Source: Aminobacter sp. HY435
Lineage (GTDB): Bacteria; Pseudomonadota; Alphaproteobacteria; Rhizobiales; Rhizobiaceae
Direction of reading: 5' to 3'
DNA length: 64,000 bases
Assembly (NCBI RefSeq): GCF_027568395.1
Contig: NZ_JANKZL010000007.1
Location: 186,001 to 250,000, forward strand
Position 1 is the stretch's first letter. Each line of letters begins with the position of its first letter. Shown here piece after piece: positions 3,588 through 36,461 of this stretch. The position numbers were made by a program, and so were the translations under genes. The notes beneath the pieces were generated by a model. The model saw nothing but the letters and a program-made list of their open reading frames with translations. It did not search any database and was not told the DNA's origin.

Positions 3588-4160
3588 ATGGACAACCACA
3601 GGGTCGGCTATTTCATCGGCAGTCTGGCGGCCGGTTCGATCAATCGCAAACTTGCCAAGGCTCTGGTTCGGCTAAAGCCGGAAACGTTGGAGATGGAAGA
3701 AATCTCGTTCCGCGACCTTCCGCTCTACAGCTATGACTACGACGCTGATTTCCCGCCCGCCGCCCGCGCATTCAAGGAGGCCCTGGCCAACGTCGACGCC
3801 GTGCTGTTCGTCACCCCCGAATACAACCGGTCCATCCCTGGCGGATTGAAGAACGCCATCGACTGGGCGAGCCGGCCCTACGGGCAGAATTCGTTCACCC
3901 GCAAGCCCTCGGCGGTGATCGGAACGTCGCCGGGTGCGATTGGCACTGCAGTGGCGCAGCAGAGCCTTCGCAGCGTGCTCAGCTTTTGCAATTCGCCGCA
4001 GATGAACGCGCCCGAGGCCTATATCCAGTTCAAGCCGGGATTGATTACCGACGACGGAGACGTGACGGTTCCGGACACCGCGAAATTCCTCGAGAGTTAC
4101 ATGTCCGAGTTTCACGCCTTCATCGACCGGGTCTATACGGTTCTGCCGCGCAGCAGGTGA
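3588..4160 (+). CDS. NADPH-dependent FMN reductase
   Basis: This 190-residue flavodoxin-like protein resembles the NADPH-dependent FMN/chromate/azo reductase family. The N-terminus G-S-L-A-A-G-S-I-N-R-K-L-A resembles the FMN phosphate loop. The middle carries the family hallmark V-T-P-E-Y-N-R-S-I-P-G-G-L-K-N-A-I-D-W, which packs on the flavin and forms the dimer. It is a cytoplasmic quinone or flavin reductase; the natural substrate cannot be read from sequence. GTG at 3585 precedes ATG at 3588. The ribosome site GGGAGA at 3575-3580 sits 7 bases before the ATG, so I prefer the ATG. It appears to be a single-gene unit between hut and ndvB. Confidence 0.85.
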   Translation: MDNHRVGYFIGSLAAGSINRKLAKALVRLKPETLEMEEISFRDLPLYSYDYDADFPPAARAFKEALANVDAVLFVTPEYNRSIPGGLKNAIDWASRPYGQNSFTRKPSAVIGTSPGAIGTAVAQQSLRSVLSFCNSPQMNAPEAYIQFKPGLITDDGDVTVPDTAKFLESYMSEFHAFIDRVYTVLPRSR

Positions 4161-4184
4161 CGCTGGACCGGGTGCCTAACTCGG

Positions 4185-4214
4185 CAGGCGGTGCCCTGTT
4201 GAGGGCACTGCCTG
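4185..4214 (+). terminator. Strong hairpin after FMN reductase
   Basis: Positions 4185-4197 and 4202-4214 form a 13-pair stem with a single G-U wobble and a four-base loop. The hairpin starts 25 bases after the stop codon. It lacks an immediate T tract; the nearest T-rich run (ATTTTGTTT) is near 4226. It may be a terminator or an mRNA-stabilising structure. The rest of 4161-4468, the upstream region of ndvB, holds no other gene I can support. Confidence 0.5.
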
Positions 4215-4468
4215 ACATATGCCCAATTTTGTTTGGCTGAACACGAAAAAGCCTGAATACTTGCGTTCCGATCTGAACTCGGCACTGCTATGTGGCACGT
4301 GGCGTCGCGGGCGATGGCGACGTCATATTTTCACTAAATCGCAGGTGCAAAGCGGTACAACGACTGTTGTATTGCCATGCAACCATTTGTTGTTTGAACT
4401 GGTTATGCGGCAGGTCCGCGACGCCGCAAGGTGGCGCGGATTTTTCTGCCAAACGGACAATGCTGTAT

Positions 4469-29357: not shown

Positions 29358-31103
29358 TTGCACCGCTTTTGGAATTTGTTTGGGTATCTGAAGGGCGCAG
29401 GGAAGAGCGGGGCTGGGCACCATGAGCCATCGGTCAATGACTCCCGGCTAGCCAATCTCTTGGAGAATACCGCCGATCTGGTCTCATTCTACGATGGAGA
29501 CCTGCGTCTGACGCAATTTGCGGCGCGGCTGGGCGACATTCGCGGCAGCGCCATGGTGGCTGGCGCGAGTGTGTGGGAGATCTATCCGGCGCTTGCCGAC
29601 GGCGAATCCCGGGAAGCGCTCGACCGCGTTCTGCGCGACGGCGTGCCATGCACCACCGCGCTGCATCTGGTGCCCAACCGCAAGCCGCTTCGAGCGCTGC
29701 TGTTTCGCACATCCGACGGCCTGGGCATCATTGAATCGGCGGACATGCATGCCAAGCCAGTCGAAGAAGCCGAGCATGTGAAGCTGCTGCACCAGGCCAC
29801 GCACGATGTGCTGACCGGCTTGCAGAACAGGCGGCGTTTCAGCGAACGCCTGGACGAGATCCTGTCCGACGCCAACGGGCCACGTGAGCGTTCGGCGCTT
29901 CTGCAGATCGATCTCGACGACTTCAAGTCAGTCAACGATACCCTTGGCCATGGCACCGGCGACACCTTGCTGCAACTGGCGGCCAATCGCATTCGCGGTG
30001 TGTTGCAGGATGGCGACTCGGCCTATCGCTATGCCGGGGACGAGTTCGCGGTCATCCAGTACGGCAAGGGGCAGCCTGGGGATGCCGAATGGCTTGCCGA
30101 GGCTTTGGTGGATGCCTTCAAGGCGCCGTTCATCATCAACGATATCCCGCTTTTCGTCGGTGCCAGCGTCGGCATCGCCTTCGGCCCACAACATGGCACC
30201 GAGAGCGAAGAGCTGATGAAGGCTGCCGATATCGCGCTCTATGCGGCCAAGCGCGACGGTCGCGGCTGCTTCCGCACCTTCAATCGCTCGATGATGTTGC
30301 TGCTCGAGCAGCGCGAAAATCTCCGGCGCAGCCTGCGCATGGCGCTGGAGCGCGACGAGCTTTACCTCGAATACCAGCCGCTGATCCGTCCGCCGGCTAC
30401 AATCGTCGGGTTCGAGGCGCTGTTGCGCTGGAATCATCCCGAAATCGGGTTGATTCCGCCAAATGTGTTCATCCCGATGGCCGAAACCGATGGCCTCATG
30501 GACGAAATCGGCCGCTGGGTACTCGAACAGGCTTGCCGGCAGGCCATGACCTGGCCGTCACCCCTGACCATTGCGGTAAACTTGTCGCCGGCGCAGTTCC
30601 TGGGTGGATCGCTGACCGACACCGTCGCCCAGATCATCGACAGCGTCGGCATCCGCGCCGACCGGATCGAGCTCGAAATCACCGAAACAGTGCTGCTTGA
30701 GCAGACCGTCGACAATCTCGATACTCTGAACACGCTCAACGTGCTGGGGATCCGGATTTCGCTCGACGATTTCGGCACGCATTACTCGTCACTGGGCTAC
30801 CTCAAGAACTTCCCGTTCGACACGCTGAAGATCGACCAGTACTTCATCAAGGACCTGGTCACCGATCAGAAGAGCCAGACCATCGTGCGATCGATCCTCA
30901 GCCTGGCGCACGGGCTGGGCATCAGCGTCACCGCCGAAGGGGTTGAAACCGAGGGGCAGGCGCGATGGCTGATCGACGAGGGGTGCGATTGCCTGCAAGG
31001 CAACTTCCTGGGCGCGGCCATGAGCGTGTCGGCGCTGCGCGACTACACCGTCCGTCCGTTGCAGGAAGTGCACGATTTGGAAGGGCAAGGGCGCCATAAA
31101 TAG
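29358..31103 (+). CDS. PAS-GGDEF-EAL cyclic di-GMP enzyme
   Basis: This 581-residue protein has a PAS-like N-terminal domain (about 28-130), a GGDEF domain with A-G-D-E-F near 226-230, and an EAL domain with E-A-L-L-R-W from residue 353. The EAL catalytic residues look intact (V-N-L-S-P, I-T-E-T, D-D-F-G-T, K-I-D-Q, A-E-G-V-E-T), so it is probably a phosphodiesterase. The GGDEF site is near consensus and may also synthesise c-di-GMP. The inhibitory RxxD site is replaced by Q-D-G-D. No membrane segment is seen. The start is TTG 29358, with GAGGAG 8 bases upstream; the ATG at 29350 is out of frame. It lies 88 bases before the partner-switching genes. Confidence 0.9.
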   Translation: MHRFWNLFGYLKGAGKSGAGHHEPSVNDSRLANLLENTADLVSFYDGDLRLTQFAARLGDIRGSAMVAGASVWEIYPALADGESREALDRVLRDGVPCTTALHLVPNRKPLRALLFRTSDGLGIIESADMHAKPVEEAEHVKLLHQATHDVLTGLQNRRRFSERLDEILSDANGPRERSALLQIDLDDFKSVNDTLGHGTGDTLLQLAANRIRGVLQDGDSAYRYAGDEFAVIQYGKGQPGDAEWLAEALVDAFKAPFIINDIPLFVGASVGIAFGPQHGTESEELMKAADIALYAAKRDGRGCFRTFNRSMMLLLEQRENLRRSLRMALERDELYLEYQPLIRPPATIVGFEALLRWNHPEIGLIPPNVFIPMAETDGLMDEIGRWVLEQACRQAMTWPSPLTIAVNLSPAQFLGGSLTDTVAQIIDSVGIRADRIELEITETVLLEQTVDNLDTLNTLNVLGIRISLDDFGTHYSSLGYLKNFPFDTLKIDQYFIKDLVTDQKSQTIVRSILSLAHGLGISVTAEGVETEGQARWLIDEGCDCLQGNFLGAAMSVSALRDYTVRPLQEVHDLEGQGRHK

Positions 31104-31191
31104 CGCGCCGGCGTCCACGCGCACCGCTACTGAAACGAATTTCCCGAACCACTTGCCAGAGCAGCCAATGCCGCATAACCGAGAGCAGCCC

Positions 31192-31716
31192 ATGCCGATG
31201 ACACCAACGCACGAGACCGCTGCGGACGATCAGTTTCGCACGATGATCCAGATCGACATGCAGATTGCCTCTTTCCACGCCAATTGGTCGCACTGCGACT
31301 ACATCGCGACCTACCTGGCCCGTACCATCAGCCACAACCGGCCGGATTCTGTGTTGTTTTCGAACCTGTTCTCATCGGCCCTCAACGAGCTTCTGGAGAT
31401 CACCTTCCGCACCCGCCACAATGGCGGGGCGCTCGCATGCAAGGTGTCGCGCGACGGCGATATGGACCGCGTCGAGCTGACTTTCTCATGCGGCGAGGAA
31501 GAGCGCCGTTTCTTCGAAGCGGCGGTAGCTCGCATCCAGGCCAGCGACGTCAAGGACCGCTACCTGAGCTCGCTCTCGGGCGATGTCGCGCCCAGCCGCG
31601 ATATCATGCTGCTCGAACTGGCCGTCAGCTACAATGCGACGGTCAACCTGGGCGAGGGCGATGACGGCACGGTTACCCTCGTTGTCGATCTCCCTCTCGG
31701 GGGACTTGCACATTGA
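31192..31716 (+). CDS. Degenerate anti-sigma-type ATPase-like protein
   Basis: This protein of about 174 residues resembles the small histidine-kinase-like ATPase regulators of the slr1658 type, by position and by the segment N-E-L-L-E-I near 65-70, which aligns with the ATP-binding N-box N-E-L-I-E-N of the intact paralogue at 35267. The metal-binding Asn is replaced by Ile, and no glycine-rich lid G-x-G-L-G is visible, so ATP binding and kinase activity are doubtful. Its stop overlaps the TTG start of the STAS-methyltransferase gene (TTGA), which implies the two proteins work together. Start choice is uncertain: ATGs at 31168, 31192 and 31198 are all in frame, with only weak ribosome sites. 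The family assignment is inference. Confidence 0.6.
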   Translation: MPMTPTHETAADDQFRTMIQIDMQIASFHANWSHCDYIATYLARTISHNRPDSVLFSNLFSSALNELLEITFRTRHNGGALACKVSRDGDMDRVELTFSCGEEERRFFEAAVARIQASDVKDRYLSSLSGDVAPSRDIMLLELAVSYNATVNLGEGDDGTVTLVVDLPLGGLAH

Positions 31717-32897
31717 GCGCAACCGCTTTCGGCGCTCAGGCGCGATACAAGGCGCAATTCGACCTGAGCAACCAGGAATTCACGATATCCGGGTCCGTGC
31801 GGCCCCAGGCGATCGAGGAAATCGCGCCGTCGCTGGCATTGCTCAAGGATTCGATCGAGCGGGTGCGAGGCATCCTGTATGTGAACGTCAGGCGCCTGGC
31901 GCAAATGAACAACATGGCGTTCCACGCCTTCTCCAGGGTGATCATCGACAGCTGCCGCGCCCGGGCCGACCTCAGATTTGTGGTCATCACGTCGAGCGTC
32001 GTCGGCTGGACGACACAGAAGTTCGGCCGTCTCCACCATATCGAGCCGAACATCTCGGTCGAGGAGTACGACAGCGAGTTCTACCCCGGCCAAAGCTTCC
32101 TCGAAGAGGGCGGCTTCATCCCGATCCTGCGCACGCAGACCAAGATGACCTGGCGCCACGAGCGTGCGATCTTGCCCAGGCATGGCATGCGCGCGGGCAT
32201 CACCATGGCTGACATCTGCTGCGGTATCGGCGACTTCGCCGTGCTGGCGCAGAAGGAATTCCAGCCGGCCCGGATCGTGGCCCTCGACCATTCGAAGTCG
32301 AGCCTTGCCTATGCGCGCCAGGTCGCGGCCGAGTTCGACATCAGCGGCATCGAATACACCTATGGCGACGCGTCGGAGATGCTGCTCGAAGACAACCAGT
32401 TCGATCTTGTGACCTGCCGGCATTCGCTGCAGATTTTCGACCGGCCCGGATTGATCCTCAAGGAGCTGTTCCGGATCTGCAAGCCGGGCGGCCGCGTCTA
32501 CATCACCAATGAGAAGAACTCGCACTGCCTCGGCGAACCACGCGCCGAAAGCATCCAGTGGACCTACACCGAGGTGGCCAGGCTGTTCGAGCATTTCGAC
32601 ATGGACGTCGAGCTGGGACCGAAGAGCCGGCGCTACCTGACCGACGCCGGTTTCGACGACATCCGCGTCGAAAGCTTCATGGTGACGAATCTCGACGGCG
32701 ACCCGCAGGACTTTGCCGATGTCGTCGCCGCGTGGGAAGATGTCTATGCCGGAGAGATGGCGGTCAAGCGCGGCGATTCGCCGGAATTCATCAAGCAGTT
32801 CCGGCAGGGCTTCAAGGATCATATATTTGCGGCACTTCATCCCAAGGGATATGCGGGCTGGCCGATCTGGGTCGCATCGGGACGTAAACCACGATGA
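31713..32897 (+). CDS. STAS-like domain fused to SAM methyltransferase
   Basis: This 394-residue cytoplasmic protein has two parts. Residues about 10-125 look like a STAS domain of the slr1659 type. The usual phosphorylatable Ser in N-S-S-G is absent, the aligned segment being M-N-N-M-A-F at 65-70. Residues about 150-390 are a class I methyltransferase with motif I A-D-I-C-C-G-I-G-D near 166-174, A-L-D-H-S after it, and the post-motif block C-K-P-G-G-R-V-Y-I. The substrate is unknown; the fold is UbiE/Methyltransf_11-like. The start is TTG 31713, overlapping the preceding stop, with GGGGGA about 9 bases upstream. The end overlaps the phosphatase gene by four bases. A STAS domain steering a methyltransferase would be an unusual partner-switch output. 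Confidence 0.75.
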   Translation: MSATAFGAQARYKAQFDLSNQEFTISGSVRPQAIEEIAPSLALLKDSIERVRGILYVNVRRLAQMNNMAFHAFSRVIIDSCRARADLRFVVITSSVVGWTTQKFGRLHHIEPNISVEEYDSEFYPGQSFLEEGGFIPILRTQTKMTWRHERAILPRHGMRAGITMADICCGIGDFAVLAQKEFQPARIVALDHSKSSLAYARQVAAEFDISGIEYTYGDASEMLLEDNQFDLVTCRHSLQIFDRPGLILKELFRICKPGGRVYITNEKNSHCLGEPRAESIQWTYTEVARLFEHFDMDVELGPKSRRYLTDAGFDDIRVESFMVTNLDGDPQDFADVVAAWEDVYAGEMAVKRGDSPEFIKQFRQGFKDHIFAALHPKGYAGWPIWVASGRKPR

Positions 32898-35263
32898 GTG
32901 ACGACAGCAAGGAAATGCCCCGTTTCGGGCTGCGCTCGTTCCGCGCCAAGTTCGTGCTTGTCGTGGGCGGTGCGGTGCTGTTCGACCTGCTGCTGAGCGG
33001 CGGGCTGGCGTTGTGGAACGTGCAGCGGCTATCGCAGGACGCGGCGTCGGAAGTTGGCGCCGGCCTGACCGAGGCCAACCAGGATTACATACGCTCCTAC
33101 GCGGAATCGACGGCTTCGCGCGTCGACCTTCTGCTCGACCGCGTCCATGCCGACGTGCAATCGCTGGCCGGCGTGATCCAGGGGCAGATCGACGATCCCG
33201 ACAGACAGGCGAAGGTGGGCTCGACGCTTGCCGGCCAGGCATCTGGTTCGGTGGATGTCGTCTACGACGCGAAGGGCCAATGGGCGCAGAACCTCCCGGG
33301 GGCCCCGTCGGTGGTCAGCGTCTGGAGCTACCTGCTCGGCCCTGATCACAAGCCGTTGCCTGCCGTCCAGCAGGAGATCGACAACAGCGCGGTGCTCGAC
33401 CTCGTCGCGCCGAGCCTGATGAACAGCGGTTCGTCGAAGCTGCAGATGTATTTCATCGGGCCGAAGGAACGGCCGATCTTCCGCACAGCACCCTATACCG
33501 ACCAGGCGCAGACCTTCGACAGGCTGTACCCCGGGCACAACAGCGCGGAATTCTGGGAGTTCTTCTTTCCCGGAATCTATGGCTCGTGGGAGCAATGGGC
33601 GCGCGATCCGGCGACGCGTCCGGTACCGGAAAGCAGCATCACCCAGACCGCCCCCTACACCGACGCGATCACCGGCAAGCTCATCGTCAGCTTCTTCCAC
33701 CCCCTGTGGACCAAGGACCGCAAGGGCGTGGCCGGTGCGGCGGGCGCCGACATCACGCTCGACCAGCTTGCCGAGATCGTCGAGAACGTGAAGATCGCCG
33801 AGACCGGCTTCGGCTTCCTCAGCATGCCGAACGGCAACGTCATCGCCATCAATCCGAAGAGCGAAGCGACGATCGGCCTCGTTTCGTCGAGCGACAAGGG
33901 CGTCGACGGCGTTACCGGACTGGAGCGTTCGTTGCACGGCAGCACGCAGCCGGCGATCGCCTCGCTCGATCTCAAGCAAGAAAATGACGGCGTCATCCAG
34001 CACGTCATGCTGCAGCAGGATGGCGAGAGCGTTCCCTATATCGTGGTACTCAAGGGACTGAAGCCGACCAATCTGTGGAGCGCCGGGCCGGCTGAAAAGC
34101 AGGCAATGTCGGTCGGCATCGTCGTGCCGGAGGGCGAGATCTACGCCTCGCTGGTTGCCGCCCAGGAGAGCATTTCAAAGGCCACGAACCGCATCCTGCT
34201 CTATCAGTTGCTGGCGATCATCGTTTCGCTGCTGATCGTGTTCGCCGCGGTGTTCGGGCTGTCGAAGCGCATCACGGCGGGCCTCAGCGCGCTGGCAGCT
34301 GCTGCCCGGCGCTTGCAGAACAAGGACTACTCGGTCCGCGTCAACATCCCGACCAAGGACGAGGTCGGAGAGGTGGGCGTCGCGTTCAACCGCATGGCCG
34401 AGGAGATCAGCTACAACACCGAAAATCTCGAGCAGCTGGTGGACGAGCGCACCAGGGACCTTGAATACGCCAATGTCGAGATTTCCTCGCTCAATGAGAA
34501 ACTGCGCAGCGAAAATGTCCGCCTCGGTGCCGAACTCGACGTCGCCCGCCAGATCCAGATGATGGTTCTGCCCAAGGACCGCGAGCTCGCCAAGATTCCG
34601 GGCGTCGAAATCGCTGCCTTCATGCGCCCGGCCGACGAAGTCGGCGGCGATTATTACGACGTCTTGCAGCACGCCGGGAAGCTGAAGATCGGCATCGGCG
34701 ACGTCACCGGGCACGGCCTGGAAAGCGGCGTCCTGATGCTGATGGTGCAGTCGGTGGCGCGCGCGTTGCAGGAAACCGGGCAGGGGGACCCGCTGCTGTT
34801 CCTCAACCAGCTCAACCGGGCCATCTTCAAGAACCTCGAGCGGACCAACTCCGACAAGCATCTGTCGCTGGCGTTCCTCGACTATGAAGACGAACACTTG
34901 GTGCTGTCGGGGCAGCACGAGGAGGTGCTTGTCGTGCGCGCCGGTGGCTCGGTCGAGCGTATCGACACGATCGACCTCGGCCTGCCCATCGGCCTCGAGA
35001 AAGACATTTCGCCATTCGTGGCGACACGCAACATACCCTTCGCCAGCGGCGACGTGGTGGTCCTGCACACGGACGGCGTGACTGAAGCCGAGGGCGCGCG
35101 CGGCGAACTGTTCGGTCTCGACAGGCTTTGCGAAAGCGCGGTGCAGCGTCGCGGGGCCAGCGCCGAAGAAATCAAGACGGGTATCGTCGAGGACCTCATG
35201 GCCCACATCGGAACCCGAAAAATCCACGACGACATCACCCTCGTCGTCATGAGGCACAGGTGA
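32894..35263 (+). CDS. Membrane SpoIIE-family PP2C phosphatase with sensor domain
   Basis: This 789-residue protein has an N-terminal membrane helix (about 19-42) and a large external region (about 45-430, with the look of a dCACHE sensor). A second helix (about 434-456), a HAMP domain (about 457-512), a coiled coil and a PP2C-type phosphatase domain (about 555-789) follow. The metal-binding aspartates are visible in V-G-G-D-Y-Y-D, G-D-V-T-G-H-G, H-T-D-G-V-T-E and H-D-D-I-T-L. Such proteins dephosphorylate a STAS anti-anti-sigma partner in response to an external signal. The likely substrate is the STAS protein at 35841. The start overlaps the methyltransferase stop (ATGA). Confidence 0.9.
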   Translation: MSDDSKEMPRFGLRSFRAKFVLVVGGAVLFDLLLSGGLALWNVQRLSQDAASEVGAGLTEANQDYIRSYAESTASRVDLLLDRVHADVQSLAGVIQGQIDDPDRQAKVGSTLAGQASGSVDVVYDAKGQWAQNLPGAPSVVSVWSYLLGPDHKPLPAVQQEIDNSAVLDLVAPSLMNSGSSKLQMYFIGPKERPIFRTAPYTDQAQTFDRLYPGHNSAEFWEFFFPGIYGSWEQWARDPATRPVPESSITQTAPYTDAITGKLIVSFFHPLWTKDRKGVAGAAGADITLDQLAEIVENVKIAETGFGFLSMPNGNVIAINPKSEATIGLVSSSDKGVDGVTGLERSLHGSTQPAIASLDLKQENDGVIQHVMLQQDGESVPYIVVLKGLKPTNLWSAGPAEKQAMSVGIVVPEGEIYASLVAAQESISKATNRILLYQLLAIIVSLLIVFAAVFGLSKRITAGLSALAAAARRLQNKDYSVRVNIPTKDEVGEVGVAFNRMAEEISYNTENLEQLVDERTRDLEYANVEISSLNEKLRSENVRLGAELDVARQIQMMVLPKDRELAKIPGVEIAAFMRPADEVGGDYYDVLQHAGKLKIGIGDVTGHGLESGVLMLMVQSVARALQETGQGDPLLFLNQLNRAIFKNLERTNSDKHLSLAFLDYEDEHLVLSGQHEEVLVVRAGGSVERIDTIDLGLPIGLEKDISPFVATRNIPFASGDVVVLHTDGVTEAEGARGELFGLDRLCESAVQRRGASAEEIKTGIVEDLMAHIGTRKIHDDITLVVMRHR

Positions 35264-35266
35264 GCC

Positions 35267-35824
35267 ATGACCACTCTGTATGGACCAGCCGAGATCGTGA
35301 TCGGCATGAACGACAGCATCAGCCGCGTCAGGCTGTTCGACGGGCCGCTTGACCTGAAGTGGCACCATTGCGCCACGACGTCGGATTTCATCGCCGACAT
35401 GTTCGCGCTGCCCTATCATTCCTCGCGCAACGACTATCGCGAGGTCCGGCACAATATCGGCTACCTGGTCAACGAACTGATCGAGAATGCGGTGAAGTTC
35501 CGCGAACCGGGCGAGATCATGGTCGAGGCGTCCATGGATCAGGACAGCTTCAAGGTGAAGGTTTCCAATGTCGTCGCAACGCAAACCGCGGCTGCCTTCC
35601 AGGAACTGCTTTCGGAGATCACCGTGGGCGATCCGGGCGACCTGCTGATCGAGCGCATCGAGGCCAATGCCGCGGATCCCGAGGCTTCCGGCTCGGGCCT
35701 TGGCCTGTTGACGCTGATGAGCGACTATGGCGCGCGTCTTGCCTGGATCTTCAGCCCTGTCGATGACGGCAAGCGCGTGCACGTCGAGACATTCGCCACC
35801 ATCCCCGTCTCCCAGTCCCACTAG
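35267..35824 (+). CDS. Anti-sigma-type ATPase regulator (slr1658-like)
   Basis: This 185-residue cytoplasmic protein of the histidine-kinase-like ATPase fold resembles the slr1658 superfamily of partner-switch regulators. The N-box N-E-L-I-E-N is at 69-74 and the glycine-rich lid G-S-G-L-G near 142-146; both look functional. It would be expected to phosphorylate the STAS serine of the next gene, with the SpoIIE phosphatase reversing this. It starts 3 bases after the phosphatase stop, and the STAS gene follows after 16 bases. Confidence 0.8.
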
Positions 35825-35840
35825 AAAAGCAGAACCGCTC

Positions 35841-36179
35841 ATGGAAATCAAAACGGACGAATACCGTGTCTGGACCGAGGGAACGGACGTCCATTTCGAC
35901 GGCACCATGCGGCTGTCGGGCACCGACGCCTACGCACCGATCATGGCGCTGATGACCGACATTCTGGCGACGAAGCCGGCGTCGATCACGCTCGACCTGA
36001 CGGACCTCGAATTCCTCAACTCGTCCGGGATCAACCTTCTGGCGAAATTCACCATCGAGGTGCGCAAGCATCCCGACGTCCAACTGGTCGTCAAGGGCAG
36101 CTCGGAGATCCCCTGGCAGACCAAGTCGCTGCCAAATCTCAAGAAGCTGCATCCGGCCGTATCGCTTCAGGTCGACTGA
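35841..36179 (+). CDS. STAS-domain anti-anti-sigma-type regulator (slr1659-like)
   Basis: This 112-residue single-domain STAS protein resembles the slr1659 superfamily. The phosphoacceptor motif is N-S-S-G at 60-63, preceded by the usual hydrophobic strand L-D-L-T-D-L-E-F-L. It is probably the switch protein whose phosphorylation state is set by the adjacent ATPase and SpoIIE phosphatase. I chose ATG 35841 because the longer open frame from 35727 overlaps the ATPase gene and adds low-complexity residues. No sigma factor is encoded nearby, so the output is not obvious. Confidence 0.82.
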
Positions 36180-36383
36180 TCGCGCTTGCCTTGCCCGTCG
36201 GGCGGCAGCTTTCCAGCACCTTCACTGCTTCCGATGTGGGCAAGGCAGGCGGCTATCTTTTCGCCCGACGCAACGCTTGCGCTCGTGAAGCGTTGTGCCG
36301 GAGAGAATTGCGCGAGGGCTTGGCAACGGGATGGGAAGTTCTACCGGACTCTGAGGCACTGTGATGCCAAGCAGGAGGTTGCG

Positions 36384-36461
36384 ATGGACTGGACAGACTG
36401 GTTCTACCTGGCGGTGATGTTCGGAGCGTCGAGCGCGGTCGTCTGGGTAATGGGAATCTGA
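36384..36461 (+). CDS. 25-residue membrane peptide
   Basis: A short open frame with a near-ideal ribosome site (AGGAGG at 36373-36378, 5 bases before the ATG) encodes 25 residues. The N-terminus M-D-W-T-D-W-F-Y is polar and aromatic; a single hydrophobic segment follows to the stop. It looks like a small single-pass inner-membrane peptide. It follows the STAS gene after 204 bases and precedes the palindromic repeats. No function is known to me. The strong ribosome site and hydrophobic pattern support its being real, but the length is too short for certainty. Confidence 0.5.
   Translation: MDWTDWFYLAVMFGASSAVVWVMGI

Follow-up and report, generated by a model that had tools for sequence, protein, structure and literature searches.

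A conserved five-gene unit was found at positions 31153-36179 of a 64,000-nucleotide stretch of DNA from Aminobacter sp. HY435 (contig NZ_JANKZL010000007.1, positions 186,001 to 250,000), hereafter called the window. By its phosphatase, its kinase ATP2 and its STAS protein STAS2, the unit is a partner-switching system. What is new here is a second, apparently dead kinase/STAS pair, consisting of the kinase-like protein ATP1 and a STAS domain fused to a methyltransferase. Judged by sequence, the live pair may control the methyltransferase held by the dead pair, often with cyclic di-GMP (c-di-GMP) as a second output; this reading is favored tentatively, at somewhat less than an even chance. The known targets of partner switches are sigma factors and, in the case of SiaABCD, a diguanylate cyclase. 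No description of a partner switch with a methyltransferase output was found among the open-licence papers listed by literature searches. The genes of the region are as follows:

29358..31103, + strand: GGDEF-EAL protein with a weak PAS-like N-terminus, accessory c-di-GMP enzyme (Pfam GGDEF and EAL)
31153..31716, + strand: ATP1, degenerate slr1658/SiaB-like kinase (NF047703 below cut-off, fold; start codon uncertain)
31713..32897, + strand: STAS-methyltransferase fusion (NF047705 below cut-off; Methyltransf_11/25/31)
32894..35263, + strand: membrane sensor phosphatase with a dCache-like periplasmic sensor, HAMP and SpoIIE/PP2C (Pfam)
35267..35824, + strand: ATP2, slr1658-superfamily (SiaB-like) switch kinase, motifs intact (NF047703)
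35841..36179, + strand: STAS2, slr1659-superfamily STAS protein with an NSSG phosphosite (NF047705)
36385..36459: 25-codon membrane-peptide open reading frame (ORF) 3' of the cluster, not conserved

The five core genes (31153-36179) overlap or almost abut. In genome contigs, 190 relatives of the fusion were found, and the best 80 of these 190 were examined; counts out of 81 refer to these 80 loci plus the window, L-numbers denote individual loci compared and G-numbers individual genomes. The 80 kept loci belong to Aminobacter, Phyllobacterium, Mesorhizobium, Sinorhizobium/Ensifer, Rhizobium, Neorhizobium, Pararhizobium, Labrys and a few further Rhizobiales. The order and strand of the five core genes were identical in 80/80 kept loci. 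A four-base overlap joined ATP1 to the fusion in 73 of the 81 loci and the fusion to the SpoIIE phosphatase in 74, the window being included in both cases. The complete core was also present in all four outlying loci, which come from two genomes of f23 (a family within the window's order) and two of f194 (from another order), with a fusion 62-71% identical to that of the window. Thus, the five genes with overlaps or tiny gaps reported in a preliminary description of this DNA were borne out, and their arrangement is not due to chance, since gene content, order and strand are shared by 80/80 kept loci. The co-occurrence of the STAS-methyltransferase with the phosphatase in relatives, which that description had proposed to check, was found with complete synteny (80/80). 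The 25-residue membrane peptide, which it had counted as part of the cluster, gave no convincing match across the 80 related loci (best E value 1.4) and was dismissed as a member; as it is not conserved, the unit ends at 36179. The idea of one signalling unit therefore holds for the conserved five-gene core, but not for the peptide or for the GGDEF-EAL gene, which lies outside the invariant core. As a whole, the observation was largely right, apart from the peptide, the PAS label of the GGDEF-EAL gene and the place of that gene in the unit.

Of 199 evenly sampled genomes of the order, 7 contained the fusion (E 1e-20); the slr1658 family (E 1e-5) was present in precisely this set of 7. The fusion occurred in 6 of 398 genomes of the phylum, with slr1658 matches in those 6 and in 4 more. 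Among 289 genomes of the class, the ATP1 profile gave a match in three, namely the window's own and two from a further order. In the further order, 7 of 28 genomes, all of one genus, carried the fusion (the neighborhoods of two were examined). On plasmids, the fusion was present in 120 records and an ATP2 match in 118 rhizobial records. Two copies of the unit (L056 and L061) are carried by Ensifer aridi LMR001, and L061 has a BgsA-like gene directly downstream and a reversed GGDEF-EAL gene. Sinorhizobium meliloti GR4 has a second copy (pRmeGR4c, L156, 4244-10708) with ATP1, the fusion, the phosphatase and a reversed GGDEF-EAL gene; pRmeGR4c, the carrier of this partial unit, was typed as a conjugative plasmid. 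A promoter and terminator scan was uninformative, with 2 promoter-like sites against 1.7 expected and 8 terminator-like sites against 5.8 expected.

The phosphatase, ATP2 and STAS2 carry the motifs of a predicted working phosphatase/kinase/substrate trio. In Pfam searches, the phosphatase matched SpoIIE (PF07228) with 127.7 bits, HAMP with 48 bits and dCache_1 with a sub-threshold 32.4 bits, and its metal-binding Asp motifs GGDYYD, GDVTGHG, TDGVTE and DDIT were kept in 81/81 sequences. The nearest solved phosphatase by sequence was PDB 6k4e, which we take to be SiaA-PP2C. ATP2 passed the cut-off of NF047703 (182.4 bits; cut-off 100); the N-box residues E70 and N74 and the Asn of the SN motif were present in 81/81 sequences, and both Gly of the G-box SGLGLLT in 80/81. 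STAS2 passed the cut-off of NF047705 (147.9 bits; cut-off 100), with the phosphosite NSSG in 81/81. Thus, the partner-switching core proposed earlier stands, with the motifs present in the PP2C phosphatase, the GHKL kinase ATP2 and STAS2 alike. By sequence, the dCache-like region of the phosphatase matched the sensors of chemoreceptors, PctA among them. Among 14 loci compared, this sensor region was 53-55% identical to that of the window in L009-L013, L024 and L039, and the rest of the protein 76-85%. The divergent sensor and conserved remainder suggest that the sensor domain has been exchanged; thus, the sensor seems exchangeable and the output side fixed.

Together, ATP1 and the fused STAS domain appear to be a degenerate duplicate of an ATP2/STAS2-type pair. 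ATP1 reached 45.7 bits with NF047703 and the fused STAS domain (about residues 10-120) 36.5 bits with NF047705; both missed the respective cut-off of 100 and are divergent relatives. The aligned ATP1 orthologues all matched NF047703 at E 0.001 (44/44). In profile comparisons, ATP1 aligned with ATP2 over 118 columns (E 1.7e-6) and, by hhalign, the fused STAS domain with STAS2 over 97 columns (E 9.8e-7). The AlphaFold2 (AF2) model of ATP1 (pLDDT 80.7) was matched best by Foldseek to the UsfX-RsfB complex, SpoIIAB and SiaB, with modest scores (E 5e-4 to 1e-3, TM about 0.4-0.5). ATP1 is 187 aa long here, and many orthologues as called are 169-175 aa long. The kinase precedes the STAS gene in both pairs, as it does in the slr1658/slr1659 pairs of L117, a cyanobacterial plasmid, and of genome G247 (L118); duplication of one kinase/STAS pair would be the simplest account of both.

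The motifs required for phosphotransfer differ sharply from those of the live pair. In ATP1, the N-box Asn was lost in 81/81 sequences (Val in 71, Ile in 9 and Met in 1), as were both Gly of the G-box, and Cys stands in 81/81 in place of the SN-motif Asn of ATP2; the conserved N-box Glu was retained in 81/81. Judged by N-box and G-box, none of the 81 ATP1 sequences qualified as a GHKL kinase. In the fused STAS domain, the first phosphosite Ser was lost in 79/81 (76 have Asn and 3 have Ala there, and the other 2 keep Ser), and the second site position is occupied by Thr in 49, Ala in 30, Met in 1 and Leu in 1 of the 81 sequences. In the four outlying loci, the N-box Asn of ATP1 is replaced by Thr, the first G-box Gly by His or Arg and the fused-STAS Ser by Asn. 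By analogy with known GHKL kinases, the motif losses would abolish the use of ATP by ATP1. Since the phosphotransfer motifs are gone from both ATP1 and the fused STAS domain, the pair probably does not form a second working switch. The median dN/dS of ATP1 was 0.105, 0.132 and 0.165 in groups of 10, 10 and 5 loci (39, 44 and 10 pairs), compared with 0.118, 0.174 and 0.064 for ATP2 in the same groups and 0.064-0.174 overall for the other genes, these values being simple pairwise counts with dS near 1 in two groups. The low dN/dS indicates that ATP1 is not decaying. In CP050561.1 (L116), the ATP1 orthologue HB772_30805 (3946-4464) is annotated as 'ubiquinone biosynthesis methyltransferase UbiE', although its position marks it as the slr1658-like protein, and the methyltransferase is the next gene.

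The C-terminal part of the fusion (about residues 140-394) is a class I S-adenosylmethionine (SAM)-dependent methyltransferase matching Methyltransf_11/25/31. Its SAM motif I, DICCGIGDF, is near-invariant, and the blocks RTQTKMTWRHE, TNEKNSHCLGEP and HPKGYAGWP are almost invariant. With a mean distance of 0.165, compared with 0.355-0.53 for both STAS and both kinase parts (ATP1, 0.53), it is the slowest-evolving part measured. When the methyltransferase domain alone was searched in 8 genomes, six full-length hits of 70-100% identity were obtained, all at clusters; no close relative was found away from clusters in these genomes, the other matches reaching at most 31% identity over part of the domain. 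On plasmids, 120 of 172 methyltransferase-matching records showed 60-90% identity, a number equal to that of the records with the full fusion (120), and the remaining ones, among the matches listed, showed at most 34%. That no close relative was found outside the fusion implies a dedicated enzyme. Among the matches listed for the fusion model, Foldseek returned methyltransferases and related SAM-fold enzymes. The domain resembles UbiE/small-molecule and phosphoethanolamine methyltransferases; with UbiE/MenG it shares the class I SAM fold, SAM motif I and the best family matches, but it missed the cut-off of TIGR01934 (63.7 bits; cut-off 158.35), is fused to a STAS domain and has no close relative found away from clusters. 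A defence function was considered and dropped, the only PADLOC match being mad2 with 62 bits at fusion residues 151-302, i.e., in the SAM-binding region.

The GGDEF-EAL gene lies upstream of the core on the same strand in 79/80 loci and is reversed in L061. Its distance to the core is 49 bases in the window and 125.5 bases in the median across loci. GGDEF (144 bits) and EAL (239 bits) were both far above cut-off; of the PAS-GGDEF-EAL label given earlier, the PAS part was backed by a sub-threshold match (PF08448, 15.0 bits; cut-off 23.1). RxAGDEF was found in 81/81 sequences, EAL, N, E, DD and K in 81/81 and EGVE in 80/81, so that the predicted catalytic motifs of both domains are complete. A passage of PMC8546604 gives the motif in a form that permits Ala at the first Gly position of GGDEF. 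The N-terminal region of the window's protein matched in 3/199 genomes, all cluster-bearing; it gave no match in 4 cluster-bearing genomes, and in at least one of these, G187, the GGDEF-EAL gene at the cluster is diverged. In G247 (L118), a distant genome of the phylum, a GGDEF gene stands beside slr1658, slr1659 and SpoIIE genes, and in L119-L121 beside a SpoIIE/SiaB-like pair (sub-threshold slr1658 matches). The row in L118 (4485-9140) reads GGDEF, slr1658, slr1659, a periplasmic binding protein-like ORF (labelled by eye) and SpoIIE; the periplasmic binding protein-like product is a possible ligand-binding partner of the phosphatase.

Homologues of c-di-GMP-responsive exopolysaccharide proteins adjoin the cluster in many rhizobia. 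A CuxR homologue (at least 45% identity) was found near the cluster in 45/81 loci, 23 downstream and convergent and 22 upstream, and a BgsA-like synthase in 18/81, in several orientations. One or the other is nearby in 52/81 and neither in 29/81, although some contigs end early and the loci are related. In S. meliloti 1021, an AraC-type gene 3.3 kb downstream of the cluster encodes a protein identical over 382 residues to PDB 5nla, presumably CuxR. The cluster, the CuxR gene and a row of six ORFs are located within 18 kb of pSymB (about 458.9-476.4 kb; L155 2866-20409), and the ORFs of the row, which follows the CuxR gene, agree in their number and strand with the APS operon as described. This layout suggests a sensor upstream of APS production. 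The S. meliloti tags SMb20447-SMb20452 and SMb20457 are presumed ones, and no occurrence of them was found among the search results listed from open-licence papers; there may be earlier work on the S. meliloti GGDEF-EAL gene. According to passages of three reports, c-di-GMP-bound CuxR activates the APS exopolysaccharide operon, and c-di-GMP activates BgsA (PMC7902896, PMC9495663, PMC5567048). In S. fredii bacteroids overexpressing a diguanylate cyclase, upregulation of the CuxR and BgsA genes is described in part of another (PMC8546604). The CuxR-APS and BgsA-mixed-linkage glucan (MLG) systems of S. meliloti would differ from the genes described here in being downstream effectors outside the unit.

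A mechanism may be proposed in which the core acts as a membrane-to-cytoplasm partner switch, with two copies of a kinase/STAS pair around a sensor phosphatase. A periplasmic ligand would alter the activity of the phosphatase and, thereby, the phosphorylation state of Ser61 of STAS2. Unphosphorylated STAS2 and the permanently 'unphosphorylated-like' STAS-methyltransferase would then compete for the kinases, i.e., for ATP2 and for ATP1 as a catalytically dead binding subunit. As the invariant output, the methyltransferase would be held or released through this competition. The same switch would, in most Hyphomicrobiales clusters, also set the GGDEF-EAL enzyme and thus local c-di-GMP, which would act on exopolysaccharide effectors such as CuxR (APS) and BgsA (MLG). 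Correlations between residual evolutionary distances were highest for STAS2-phosphatase (0.46), ATP2-fused STAS (0.44), ATP1-ATP2 (0.43), ATP2-STAS2 (0.34) and ATP1-fused STAS (0.27), and lower for ATP1-phosphatase (0.25), fused STAS-STAS2 (0.24), ATP2-phosphatase (0.23), ATP1-STAS2 (0.19) and fused STAS-phosphatase (0.16). In these values the distances of GGDEF-EAL and of the methyltransferase domain were regressed out, which removes phylogeny in part, and the bootstrap intervals overlap. As a lead, and as weak evidence, the ranking agrees with action of the phosphatase on STAS2 and with a choice by ATP2 between STAS2 and the fusion; perhaps ATP1 and ATP2 form a heterodimer. That methylation is the general output, with the dead 'holder' pair coupling a dedicated methyltransferase to the live switch and with an additional c-di-GMP/exopolysaccharide output in many rhizobia, is possible but open to considerable doubt.

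The closest known systems include SiaABCD of Pseudomonas aeruginosa, which is made up of the phosphatase SiaA, the kinase SiaB, the phosphoprotein SiaC and the diguanylate cyclase SiaD. As described in passages of PMC8457831 and PMC7647112, SiaB and SiaA set the phosphorylation of SiaC, and unphosphorylated SiaC activates SiaD. Both systems cluster a HAMP-PP2C membrane phosphatase, a SiaB-like kinase, a STAS-type phosphoprotein and a c-di-GMP enzyme, and the ATP1 model matched the SiaB-SiaC structure 6kko. However, the cut-offs were missed for SiaA (136 of 700 bits), SiaB (31.6 of 85) and SiaD (100.9 of 290), STAS2 matched slr1659 with no SiaC match among the families listed for it, SiaD is replaced by GGDEF-EAL, and an extra degenerate kinase/STAS pair with a methyltransferase is present. 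Thus, given the missed cut-offs and the slr1659-like STAS protein, the unit is SiaABCD-like in its working but not a SiaABCD member. With the cyanobacterial slr1658 and slr1659 superfamilies, ATP2 and STAS2 share both curated cut-offs, which they passed, and the kinase-STAS gene order common to Kovacikia (L117) and G247 (L118). In about 16 kb each of L117 and L118, however, no second pair, no methyltransferase fusion and no GGDEF-EAL relative was found (L118 has a GGDEF-only gene). Switching of the SpoIIE/RsbU, SpoIIAB/RsbW and SpoIIAA/RsbV type likewise involves a PP2C phosphatase, a GHKL switch kinase and a STAS antagonist, with the motifs intact here; the unit differs by its extra dead pair, its enzyme outputs and the lack of a sigma factor found in the window.

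Several observations weigh against control of the methyltransferase through the dead pair, or against its c-di-GMP arm. Since the kept loci are mutually related, the counts over 81 are not independent. The AF2 model of the fusion is poor (pLDDT 63.5). A GGDEF-EAL match was absent from 4/4 outlying loci in the 15-19 kb examined, and c-di-GMP can therefore not be the general output; by the same token, the five-gene core is more constant than the c-di-GMP enzyme, which was either added to it or lost. Neither a CuxR nor a BgsA homologue lies near the window's copy; the window's own genome has no BgsA relative at E 1e-80 and CuxR relatives of only 38% identity on another contig. Among 14 cluster-bearing genomes, a CuxR relative (E 1e-40) was found in 8, on the cluster's contig in 2, and a BgsA relative (E 1e-80) in 3, in none on the cluster's contig. 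As a ligase-like gene (labelled by eye) also occurs near the cluster in 23/81 loci, co-location among related genomes alone proves little. A SiaABCD-like c-di-GMP switch, in which the phosphatase, ATP2 and STAS2 would target GGDEF-EAL and the co-transcribed ATP1 and STAS-methyltransferase would form a separate module, is an unlikely explanation. The SiaA-like match of the phosphatase (NF038263, 136 bits; cut-off 700), the SiaB-like match of ATP2, the GGDEF genes adjoining such genes in other genomes, the CuxR/BgsA neighbors and the activation of the diguanylate cyclase SiaD by unphosphorylated SiaC in P. aeruginosa, given in part of PMC8457831, speak for such a switch, but the outlying loci keep all five core genes without GGDEF-EAL (4/4), and the methyltransferase is the most conserved part. 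Transcriptional output via an anti-sigma/sigma pair encoded elsewhere, with the methyltransferase secondary, is very improbable. Classical SpoIIE/RsbW/RsbV systems act on sigma factors, but ATP2 is slr1658/SiaB-like and not RsbW-like, and no sigma factor was seen among the 18 commonest neighbor groups (by eye). A sigma factor encoded in the window was rejected, since no Sigma70_r2 match was found there, in line with the preliminary description; a search of the window's own genome gave 11 Sigma70_r2 hits, of which a single one falls on this contig and precedes the window by about 171 kb.

The remaining alternatives concern the dead pair. In the 16 kb searched, the second GR4 copy lacked any STAS2 match, and ATP2 was matched weakly by ATP1 alone, so that the live pair can be absent locally beside a dead pair; this copy may be a remnant or may borrow ATP2 and STAS2 from the other copy. 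It slightly weakened our confidence in the favored reading, to its present tentative level, and slightly strengthened the view that ATP1 and the STAS-methyltransferase form a constitutive methylating complex adapting the system, e.g., by methylating the phosphatase or ATP2, as a feedback arm of the kind that CheR provides in chemotaxis. Even so, such self-methylation appears quite unlikely, as the methyltransferase is akin to UbiE/small-molecule and phosphoethanolamine enzymes and not to CheR; in its favor are also the four-base overlaps joining the methyltransferase gene to both neighbors and the confinement of close domain relatives to clusters (8 genomes) and, on plasmids, to as many records at 60% identity or more as hold the fusion (120). 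Less probable again is that both pairs are live, ATP1 and the fused STAS domain exchanging phosphate by a non-canonical route, e.g., via the Thr beside the lost Ser. This Thr (49/81) might be phosphorylated, Ser is retained at the first site in two orthologues (L030 and L032), the N-box Glu of ATP1 is kept in 81/81, and its second G-box Gly is retained in 4/4 outlying loci, where its degeneration is thus less complete. However, the candidate Thr is replaced by Ala in 30/81, and the N-box Asn, both G-box Gly and the SN Asn of ATP1 are gone in 81/81. Control of a methyltransferase by the live pair through a dead holder pair is thus retained as the tentative reading. The earlier interpretation was supported in part: its single signalling unit and partner-switching core were upheld, GGDEF-EAL proved not to belong to the invariant core and the peptide not to be conserved, the loss of phosphotransfer motifs from ATP1 and the fused STAS domain had gone unnoticed, and both the c-di-GMP and the enzymatic outputs that it envisaged were judged plausible.

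If true, a switch that ends in a methyltransferase and includes a motif-less second pair would show pseudo-enzymes extending the logic of partner switching. A tractable laboratory model is available in S. meliloti 1021, where the unit is located 3.3 kb from the CuxR exopolysaccharide locus. The unit is a candidate for the sensor that acts upstream of c-di-GMP-controlled polysaccharides in rhizobia. It would turn an outside ligand into a methylation signal, joined in many rhizobia by a c-di-GMP/exopolysaccharide signal.

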